From: Candidatus Poseidoniia archaeon
GTDB taxonomy: Archaea > Thermoplasmatota > Poseidoniia > MGIII > CG-Epi1
Direction: 5' to 3'
Length of the DNA stretch: 64,000 nt
Assembly: GCA_030748895.1 (NCBI GenBank)
Contig: JASMLC010000001.1
Span: forward strand, 42,345-106,344
Shown: piece after piece, positions 25,143 through 34,504 of the stretch
How the letters are laid out: each line of letters opens with the position of its first letter
How positions within the stretch are numbered: position 1 is the stretch's first letter
Translations under genes and position numbers: made by a program
The notes under the pieces: model-generated
Told to the model about the DNA's origin: nothing
The model's input: only the letters and a program-made list of their open reading frames with translations
Databases searched by the model: none

Positions 25143-25155
25143 CGTTAAATAAACG
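25143..25155. promoter_or_regulatory. Shared bidirectional A/T box
   Basis: CGTTAAATAAACG lies midway between the ATG of uppP (25173, plus) and the ATG at 25123 (minus): about 24 and 26 bases from its centre. Both genes therefore look leaderless and served by one near-palindromic TATA element. Confidence 0.6.
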
Positions 25156-25172
25156 TGGCGACTCGCCGCGCG

Positions 25173-25970
25173 ATGGAACCAGCGATAGCGTTGCTGCTCG
25201 GCATCGTGCAGGGGCTGACCGAGTGGCTGCCGGTCAGCAGCAGCGGCCACTTGGTGATTTTCGAGCACCTCAGCGGCGTGCGCCCGCCACTCTTCTTCAA
25301 CATCGCGCTGCATCTCGGCACGCTGCTCGCCGCCGGCTGGCTGCTGCGCACCGACATTGCGGGCGCGCTGCGCGCGACGCCTGCTGCGCTGCGCGCAGTG
25401 CGCACCGGCACGACCGATCCTGACGAGCGCACCGTGCAACTGGTGCTGCTCGCGAGCATCCCGACGGCGATTATCGGCTTCAGCTTTGACGCCTTTGCGA
25501 GCGGCTGGCTCGGCTCGCTACAAATTACGGGAGTTGGGCTGCTCGTGACCGCTGGCGTGCTCTGGCTCTCGCGCGGTCGCGGCGGCACGCTCGACGTGGC
25601 GAGCGTGCCGCTCGTCGTCGGCCTCTGGATGGGGCTGGCGCAGGGGCTGGCGGTGCTACCGGGACTCTCGCGCTCGGGGCTGACAATTGCGGCCGGCATG
25701 GCGGCTGGCATGCGCCCGGTCGCGGCGGCGCGGCTCTCGTTCCTGATGTCGATGCCCGCCATCCTCGGCGCAACCGCCCTCGAGCTGCTGCAGGAGCGCG
25801 AAGGCGCGCTCGCGGGAGTCGCGCCGGCCGAGTTCCTGCTCGGGATGGCTGCCGCCGCCATCACCGGCTTCCTCGCGCTGCGCTGGCTGCTGGCGCTGGT
25901 GGAGCAGCAGCGGTTCCACTGGTTTGCGCCATATTGTGGGCTGGTCGGCGCGGCGCTCCTGCTGCTGTAA
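25173..25970 (+). CDS. uppP: Undecaprenyl-diphosphatase UppP (BacA family)
   Basis: Integral membrane phosphatase recycling polyprenyl diphosphate carriers; in archaea the carrier is probably a polyprenyl/dolichyl phosphate for glycan transfer. It has 265 residues and about eight helices. The two active-site motifs are GIVQGLTEWLPVSSSGHL at the N terminus and AQGLAVLPGLSRSGLTIAAG in the second half. ATG 25173 fits the A/T box 24 bases upstream; a GTG at 25155 would add six residues. The last 20-30 codons are duplicated downstream after a dispersed repeat. Confidence 0.93.
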   Translation: MEPAIALLLGIVQGLTEWLPVSSSGHLVIFEHLSGVRPPLFFNIALHLGTLLAAGWLLRTDIAGALRATPAALRAVRTGTTDPDERTVQLVLLASIPTAIIGFSFDAFASGWLGSLQITGVGLLVTAGVLWLSRGRGGTLDVASVPLVVGLWMGLAQGLAVLPGLSRSGLTIAAGMAAGMRPVAAARLSFLMSMPAILGATALELLQEREGALAGVAPAEFLLGMAAAAITGFLALRWLLALVEQQRFHWFAPYCGLVGAALLLL

Positions 25971-26020
25971 CCTTGCAGCGCAGCCTATCTGTCCTCGCTT
26001 CGCTCGGCCAGCGGCTGCTC
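25971..26020 (+). repeat. Dispersed repeat, copy A
   Basis: 50 bases directly after the uppP stop. It matches copy B (34455-34504, opposite strand) at 40 of 50 positions and copy C (26833-26877). In one frame it reads QRSLSVLASLGQRLL, compared with QRNLSGLAELGQRLL in B and RNLSGLALLGQRLL in C; many differences are at third codon positions. It runs straight into a second copy of the uppP 3' end. Confidence 0.7.
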
Positions 26021-26098
26021 GCCCTCGTAGAGCAGCAGCGGTTCCACTGGTTTGCGCCCTACTGCGGGCTGGTCGGCCTCGTTATCCTGTCGCTCTAG
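26021..26098 (+). pseudogene. Duplicated 3' end of uppP
   Basis: Reads LVEQQRFHWFAPYCGLVG and then six further residues before a TAG at 26096-26098. The stretch 26030-26077 repeats 25902-25949 with only 3 mismatches in 48 bases, all silent (third bases of Pro, Tyr and Cys codons). The TAG shares CTAG with the stop of the convergent lipoprotein gene. This may be the original end of uppP displaced by an insertion, or a remnant of a second gene copy. Confidence 0.75.
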
Positions 26099-26706
26099 CG
26101 CTGCAGGATTTCGGTCTGGACGACTAGTTCATAGTTGCCCGAATAGAGTTGCGAAGCGACCCCCTCCATCCCCGAGCCGGAGATGGTGATGGTCCACTCG
26201 CCCTCGACCGTGGGGAGCGGTGGCGAGTAGGGGCCGATTTCCTTCTCGTTGCCAGTCCAGTAGACGATTTCGTAGCAGGGCGGCTCGCGGTCATCACGGC
26301 AGAACACCTCGCCGTCCGGGGTGCGGAAGGTGAGGTCGAGCGTTCCCGCCGGCCCTTCCTCGGGTTGCTCGCCACCGATGAGCATGTAGTCAATCGTAAT
26401 CTCGACTCGCAGGTAGCGCGCACCTTGCGGCAGCTCGAACTTGTGGGTATATTCGACCCACGAGAGGTTCTGCAGCGCCTGCTGGAACTGGAGCGGGTCC
26501 TCGGCAATATCCAGCACGGCCTCGATTAGCGTATCCTGGTCCTGGTCGGGGTCGGGCGCGAACTGCCCCTCGAAGTGGTTGAGTTCGACCTGCGTGTAGA
26601 CCGCCTCCGGCTCGGGCACCAGCCGGTCCATCAGCCCGTTCATGGCGGGAACGTCGATGCAGCCCACCGTGGCGAGCATCAGCGCGACCGCCAGCATCCG
26701 CTTCAT
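26095..26706 (-). CDS. Predicted lipoprotein, unknown
   Basis: 203 residues starting MKRMLAVALMLATVGCIDVP: a signal peptide whose VGC lipobox predicts a lipid-anchored Cys at residue 16. The exported part ends in a beta-rich region (EGEWTITISGSGMEGV...) resembling jellyroll or proprotein-convertase-like exterior domains, and contains one possible disulfide (VFCRDDREPPCYE). I do not recognise the family. ATG 26706 fits an ATTAAA box 23-28 bases upstream. A longer frame extending to 26970 is rejected because that stretch includes the box and a dispersed repeat. Confidence 0.65.
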   Translation of the reverse strand: MKRMLAVALMLATVGCIDVPAMNGLMDRLVPEPEAVYTQVELNHFEGQFAPDPDQDQDTLIEAVLDIAEDPLQFQQALQNLSWVEYTHKFELPQGARYLRVEITIDYMLIGGEQPEEGPAGTLDLTFRTPDGEVFCRDDREPPCYEIVYWTGNEKEIGPYSPPLPTVEGEWTITISGSGMEGVASQLYSGNYELVVQTEILQR

Positions 26707-26734: not shown

Positions 26735-26832
26735 GATTGTCGCCGTCGCCGCAGGCGGCAGCAGCCGCGTGTCGCGCGTAGCGGGACACGCCAGACTGCG
26801 CTTGCCAGCCTGCGACCGACGGGAGCGGGCGA

Positions 26833-26877
26833 CAGCAGCCGCTGGCCGAGCAGGGCGAGGCCAGAGAGGTTGCGCTC
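26833..26877 (-). repeat. Dispersed repeat, copy C
   Basis: Matches copy B at 38 of 45 positions. It lies in the divergent region between the lipoprotein gene and gltX, oriented as in copies A and B relative to its reading frame (RNLSGLALLGQRLL). It abuts a perfect GC-rich hairpin. No duplicated gene end was found beside this copy. Confidence 0.65.
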
Positions 26878-34438: not shown

Positions 34439-34463
34439 TTACTTGCTGGTGCCGCAGCAACCG
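34439..34463 (-). pseudogene. Duplicated 3' end of the Nfu-type gene
   Basis: On the minus strand it reads GCCGTSK followed by TAA, matching the end of the Nfu-type gene (GCSACGASK, TAG). It lies past the dispersed repeat and one base from the stop of the convergent TraB gene. The arrangement mirrors that at uppP. Confidence 0.55.
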
Positions 34464-34504
34464 CTGGCCGAGCTCCGCGAGGCCAGAAAGATTGCGCTGC
34501 GAGG
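34455..34504 (-). repeat. Dispersed repeat, copy B
   Basis: 50 bases matching copy A at 40 positions, oriented the same way relative to the gene it follows (downstream of the Nfu-type gene on the minus strand). Its frame reads SQRNLSGLAELGQRLL. Its end merges with the duplicated gene end. Confidence 0.7.

Follow-up and report, generated by a model that had tools for sequence, protein, structure and literature searches.

A very small hairpin element that looks like a previously undescribed kind of gene-end-swapping mobile DNA in a marine archaeon

Introduction

Many genomes carry short hairpin repeats behind their genes, and the route by which most of these repeats were inserted is unknown. 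REP sequences are short extragenic multicopy hairpins with internal irregularity that lie 3′ of genes; in the REP/RAYT system they carry a GTAG or CGTC tag at the foot (tags as given in PMC3733652). The attC sites of archaeal integrons consist of an outer box, an unpaired spacer and an inner box placed directly after a stop codon, and keep their structure while their sequence varies (PMC9668308). Islands inserted by tyrosine recombinases into tRNA genes or gene 3′ ends, such as those found by Islander (PMC4383910), split their target and restore it, leaving a displaced fragment at the far end. ORF-less mobile hairpins whose mechanism is unknown occur in the mitochondrial genomes of sponges and Allomyces, those of Allomyces being reported without flanking duplications (PMC2800124). 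In fungal mitochondria (Allomyces atp6; Glomus atp6, atp9, cox2 and nad3), mobile-ORF gene hybrids have a foreign end that replaces the native one, with the native duplicate left downstream; the native copy matches a close relative, whereas the inserted copy has diverged at the DNA level with its protein sequence conserved (PMC3630166).

The locus described here is the 3′ end of uppP in an archaeal chromosome, where a hairpin of a multicopy family separates two copies of the gene end. The mobile-ORF hybrids are its closest precedent for end replacement, although they include an endonuclease ORF and measure several hundred to more than 1000 bases, whereas our insert amounts to about 100–130 nt including the new end and contains a hairpin but no ORF. 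The family resembles REP in being short, extragenic, multicopy, internally irregular and 3′ of genes. Unlike REP/RAYT, it has neither tag at the foot (AGC or GGC precedes the core), its target is duplicated, and no Y1 transposase (PF01797) was found in the genome under study or in five congeners (64–97% complete). Like the mitochondrial hairpins it is ORF-less, but duplications, not reported for those of Allomyces, are its hallmark. As with gene-end islands, the gene end is restored and a native fragment displaced (at uppP and at the MFS, AhpC and glutaredoxin genes); unlike them, the insert is about 0.1 kb, leaves no room for an integrase gene and occupies many different targets in one genome. 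In a limited literature search we met no element described as having both a hairpin of such size and gene-end duplication, and the family would seem to be gene-end-swapping mobile DNA, very small and of a kind not described before.

Genomes compared

The window, that is, the whole 64-kb stretch of DNA analysed, belongs to a 1.4-Mb marine euryarchaeal genome of 72 contigs (G000; contigs C1, C2 and so on). Its two nearest sister species, G001 (the Cayman_92 MAG) and G002 (the NP106 MAG), are about 90% identical to it, and species sampling was confined to five congeners (G001–G005), the genomes of the genus used being 64–97% complete. G000 and G002 were used in the form of stretches totalling about 1.16 Mb and 0.9 Mb, respectively. 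The relatives picked out by our GTDB scan are metagenome assemblies, as G000 probably is too. Gene names outside the window are Pfam matches.

The uppP gene end is duplicated around a hairpin

The features of the window that concern us are the following.

25155..25970, + strand: open frame of uppP (BacA family; PF02673, E 3.5e-67), ending in the tail GAALLLL, which we read as a replacement
25885..25978, + strand: near copy X, made up of the uppP end now in use and a few bases beyond its stop; 94-nt direct repeat, an outlier against the congeners
25976..26019, + strand: hairpin element R, 39-nt core at 25980-26018; covariance-model match of 67.3 bits, with compensatory changes in both stems among 15 copies
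26013..26106, + strand: far copy X′, read from the empty-site alignment with G001 and G002 as the older uppP end, joined to native downstream DNA
26095..26706, − strand: convergent lipoprotein-like gene (open frame, sequence), whose stop overlaps that of X′
26760..26803, − strand: diverged hairpin copy adjoining the next one; 31.8 bits, absent from G002
26834..26877, − strand: second hairpin copy near uppP; 67.5 bits, absent from G002
34456..34499, − strand: hairpin copy 30 nt 3′ of a NifU-like gene (PF01106), found with the covariance model

A sequence-only reading of this DNA had pointed out that 25902-25949 recurs at 26030-26077 with three differences in 48 positions. These (25931 A/C, 25934 T/C and 25937 T/C) do fall on third codon positions and are silent. 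A second copy of the last uppP codons is thus present, but its extent had been understated, as the duplication spans 94 nt rather than 48 (25885-25978 against 26013-26106, with 19 mismatches and a spacing of exactly 128). All seven differences in the first 20 codons are silent, and the hydrophobic tail differs in protein, reading AALLLL up to the stop in the near copy and LVILSL in the far one. The right foot of the hairpin, CGGCTGCT, doubles as the start of X′, which lies outside the present uppP product. The TAG of X′ (26096-26098) and the stop of the lipoprotein-like gene overlap in CTAG (26095-26098), as had been noted. Searches returned no Pfam family for the latter gene and no Rfam family at the uppP locus. 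A flank-to-flank alignment score of 47.5, compared with a maximum of 13 among 300 shuffles, excludes chance.

Alignment of the uppP loci of G001 and G002 gave the empty site that the sequence-only reading had named as support for an insertion, lacking exactly one 128-base unit. Both relatives have a single uppP end without the repeat, fused to the end of the lipoprotein gene; 128 bases were therefore inserted in the G000 lineage. The tail of the far copy resembles those of G001 and G002 (LIILSLSL and LIVISL up to the stop), and that of the near copy does not, which marks the far copy as the older and makes the near copy look like the replacement. The empty sites and the tail comparison thus support the earlier proposal that the far copy is the original end and that the repeat was inserted together with a replacement end. 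Neither the agency of an integrase nor an origin of the replacement end in another species has been proven.

Three other origins of the structure were considered. A decayed full second copy of uppP is excluded, the homology being limited to 94 nt. Tandem duplication by slippage would put a second hairpin after X′; it was rejected because there is none and because G001 and G002 are free of any hairpin at uppP. An assembly artefact was judged unlikely, since many genes show the same structure, the contigs concerned are long, and G001, which was assembled independently, has it as well.

The hairpin belongs to a structured, nearly species-specific family

The repeat after the uppP stop had been called dispersed, and it is: loose BLAST gave 36 matches in the genome, with E<1e-4 for seven, the repeat itself among them. 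A covariance model built from seven copies matched 17 times in G000, once in G001 and once well in G002, with no matches in other genera or in relatives beyond the three closest. After inspection we count about 26 copies in G000, and the family is nearly absent from the sister species. The remark that the inserted unit is far too short for a normal element was correct, but uppP does not stand alone: the genome has all these hairpins and about ten further copy-hairpin-copy sites. A pattern of the two conserved feet occurred 14 times in G000 and twice in a reversed-pattern control. A purely structural search required a 6-bp outer stem that opens with GC, an internal loop in which 3 nt, T first, face a single C, and an inner stem of 4 or more. 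It returned 21 hits in G000 (about 1.16 Mb), compared with 2 when the G000 sequence was reversed, and 4 in G002 (0.9 Mb). Among about 85,000 GTDB genomes, the exact subfamily pattern matched only G001 and G002, and two hairpin patterns had zero matches among 2.9 million viral contigs that might have revealed a viral carrier.

The core measures 36-49 nt. Its outer stem is conserved (GCARCC/GGYTGC, with compensated changes in some copies), its internal loop is asymmetric, with 3 nt, the first of them T, opposite a single C, and its inner stem varies. A gap-free alignment of fifteen equally long copies has 97% of its cells paired; 7 of 12 pairs have changed on both sides (22 cells, compared with 6.1 expected in shuffles), and the signal is lost when the partners are slid. 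The inner stem is nearly free in sequence (CTGGCC/GGCCAG, GTGGTC/GACCAC, GTGGAA/TTCCAC, CGTGTC/GACACG), and the feet, GCGCARCCT and CGGYTGCT, are conserved. Since the inner stem is free yet paired and the feet are kept, it is the folded single strand that matters. At many genes the hairpins lie 0-38 nt behind the stop codon.

To the left of the hairpins at C9:13594, C1:69104, C5:2021, C8:56160 and C10:35226 there is a recurrent extension resembling CTCCCTYYGGTCGC..CTTCGC; at some sites the hairpin may be just part of the element.

The same anatomy recurs at other loci

Copies of the target flank a hairpin at the following sites as well.

C1:129763: MFS transporter, 60 nt
C18:759: AhpC
C2:75386: PQQ/zinc-ribbon protein
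C3:102283: M14 peptidase
C4:19180: flavoprotein, 47 nt, with four differences, all silent, including TAG/TAA
C4:15383: glutaredoxin
G001: behind the NifU gene, in a second species
C10:35226: gene start, 34 nt, the right-hand copy being the working start
C2:80016: site after a gene
C4:106924-107043: tandem pair
C1:143720-144115: surroundings of tRNA-His, several times over, with four hairpins, a 54-nt broken tRNA copy and the intact tRNA

With a target copy on either side of the hairpin, the gene retains a complete end. When 973 gene ends were scanned, the top five gene-end duplications of G000 all enclosed a hairpin, and none did in G002. The outer stem of the flavoprotein hairpin is different but fully compensated (GCGACT/AGTCGC), so that this locus was found independently of the repeat sequence. 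In the tRNA-His cluster the 5′ end of the tRNA (AACCCCGCC) is repeated; G002 has the intact tRNA only. The NifU orthologue of G001 has its own hairpin at the gene end, with a clear end duplication. Those hairpin sites that G002 covers have no hairpin there, and in a reciprocal case a hairpin of G002 is missing from G000. No clear target duplication was seen at C18:3327, C3:30437, C2:107346, C2:107733 and C14:4406, which counts against the explanation proposed below.

The right junction is tight, the copy starting at the hairpin foot. There the foot CGGYTGCT and the target usually share 2-8 bases: GGCTGCT at uppP, CGGYTGC at the MFS gene, GGYxGCT at NifU in G001 and 2-4 bases at other loci. The left junction is loose, often with 0-30 nt extra between the duplicated part and the hairpin, and some of these extras recur between copies. 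Target duplications of variable length with a precise 3′ end and a variable 5′ end are thus present, a pattern not specific for RNA-mediated insertion.

The glutaredoxin gene ends of G003 (L252) and G005 (L253) are followed directly 3′ by different hairpins, as the gene is followed by one in G000, and throughout the genus the end of this gene looks like a hotspot. The hairpin variants in G003–G005 were observed at single loci only.

The attached gene end often looks like the newcomer

We compared each stranded copy with a congener and with its attached partner. The differences of X′ from the congener and from X, respectively, numbered 13 and 17 nt at uppP, 0 and 8 at the MFS gene, 3 and 6 at AhpC, and 6 and 9 at glutaredoxin. 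At four of the six loci with orthologues the stranded copy is therefore nearer to a congener than to its attached partner, which agrees with the fungal hybrids, and the attached end looks like a replacement. At the MFS gene, the attached copy is like G003 and G004 (AAG CTG) and the stranded one like G001 and G002. In the youngest case, the zinc-ribbon gene, the two copies group as sisters, and at the NifU gene of G001 the odd one is X′; plain duplication followed by decay predicts both patterns, and they count against replacement. As the compared stretches are short, lineage assignment is weak at each single locus.

The last 60 nt of hairpin-followed genes are also unusually diverged from G002 (ranks 1, 4, 15 and 16 of 505; Mann-Whitney p=1e-4 for eight such genes), and no general drop in identity at gene ends relative to G002 was found. 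The uppP genes of G001 and G002, both hairpin-free, are 97-100% identical except for about 200 nt at the 3′ end, where identity falls to 72-88% before recovering. The end of uppP thus seems to be exchanged even without a hairpin, and this patch is possibly the footprint of a lost insertion or of an end exchange. The pattern of end divergence fits replacement of gene ends better than decay of a duplicate. The codon CGG, which X and X′ of uppP have in common, was not seen in the sampled congeners, whose uppP products are 80-94% identical to that of G000 in amino acids; any donor would therefore belong to a close lineage.

At C2:3548, G000 has another MFS-like gene end, this one of G003 type, in addition to its G001/G002-type end. 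It is either a paralogue or a transferred copy.

Proposed mechanism and alternatives

We consider it probable, though by no means settled, that a single insertion produced the uppP interval, that the inserted DNA is a small mobile element without an ORF that folds into a hairpin, and that the donor-type end X thereby replaced the old end. The mechanism is inferred. A break or nick would form in the gene at a GGYTGCT-like site close to its 3′ end; the hairpin foot would join the target on the right side of the nicked site; and the upstream side would be repaired from a donor molecule consisting of the same gene and then the hairpin. The donor-type end would thereby take over, the old end staying downstream as X′. 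An enzyme would have to act in trans, and the data leave the choice between a DNA and an RNA intermediate undecided. The mobilising enzyme is unidentified: none was found linked to the hairpin family, which counts against this explanation. The two tyrosine recombinases of G000 (C19:254-1237 and C20:553-1575), neither linked to a hairpin, are untested candidates. More speculatively, and with rather less confidence than in the single insertion, we raise the possibility that a categorically new, ORF-less, mobile single-strand hairpin of about 40 nt travels between species with the end of the gene that precedes it, enters that gene in its new host by exchanging the ends and so spreads with the gene left intact, such that gene-tail cassettes are moved in trans.

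A simpler possibility is that an ordinary mobile hairpin makes long, variable target-site duplications (about 11-94 bp) by widely staggered nicks, X and X′ being identical at insertion and X later changing silently, through coding selection or allelic exchange, while X′ drifts. The geometry fits, with its tight right end, sloppy left end and target on both sides. So does the young zinc-ribbon case, where X is close to X′ (2/28), and the 34-nt duplication at the gene start, where X′ keeps the start, is simple to explain in this way. However, X′ should then change faster, whereas at uppP, MFS, AhpC and glutaredoxin it is X that does. Nor does decay of a stranded copy predict the silent-only differences in AhpC, the flavoprotein and the first 20 uppP codons. 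There is also no Y1 transposase in the genomes searched and, in 13 genomes, no reverse transcriptase (PF00078), which a retrotransposed, SINE-like element would need. We therefore think this account rather unlikely as it stands, although staggered target duplication may be the common core of all the insertions.

The fold invites comparison with integrons. If the hairpin were an attC-like single-strand site, X and the hairpin could leave together as a circle of about 100-130 nt, which a tyrosine recombinase would insert at secondary sites resembling GGYTGCT; recombination at the foot would yield exactly gene-X-hairpin-X′, and G000 does have two such recombinases. The layout (paired outer and inner boxes, unpaired spacer, variable loop, position right behind the stop codon), with compensatory changes in both helices, meets the description of a folded attC hairpin. 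But the R box core GTTRRRY / RYYYAAC is not conserved, the triplet being GTT in only 5 of 15 aligned copies and GCT in 9; both recombinases (77 and 50 bits) fall below the integron-integrase cut-off of 265 (TIGR02249), and no integron integrase was found. There is also no cassette array, and the cassettes would be mere gene ends or fragments. We regard this origin as very improbable. Fainter still is the prospect that the hairpin was already resident, as a terminator or a REP-like feature, and that frequent interspecies recombination imports gene-X-hairpin tracts, an imprecise far end at short shared sequence stranding the old end (homology-facilitated illegitimate recombination). Microhomology at the right junction and the imported look of the gene ends would agree with it; left unexplained are why every illegitimate end coincides with the hairpin foot and why one species has about 26 copies and its sisters nearly none, and the tRNA-His and gene-start insertions have no donor gene end.

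In our preferred reading, the insertion of a small hairpin element, the insertions can still be read from their sites: target copies flank the hairpin, sister species have the site empty, and the junction is tight on the right and loose on the left. The mechanism can therefore be tested from sequence. If the attached end is truly imported, this would explain how a tiny parasite can harmlessly enter useful genes at their coding ends, and would make the element a source of interspecies gene-end exchange in uncultured marine archaea.

Other repeats and insertions near gene ends

A near-exact tandem repeat in G000 (C8:25565-25715), absent in G002, has a 75-nt unit that holds an oppositely oriented hairpin variant. 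The M14 peptidase end in G002 (L103:4987-5898) has no hairpin; it has an insertion of about 0.9 kb, seemingly with a methyltransferase-like frame. A second short repeat (about CATCCCCGTCAGGCGAC) lies near gene ends at C4:19100-19179, at the end of the gene C3_34948_36049_- and near C2:75386, and seems to be the source of the last codons of one gene, which ranks third of 505 in end divergence.
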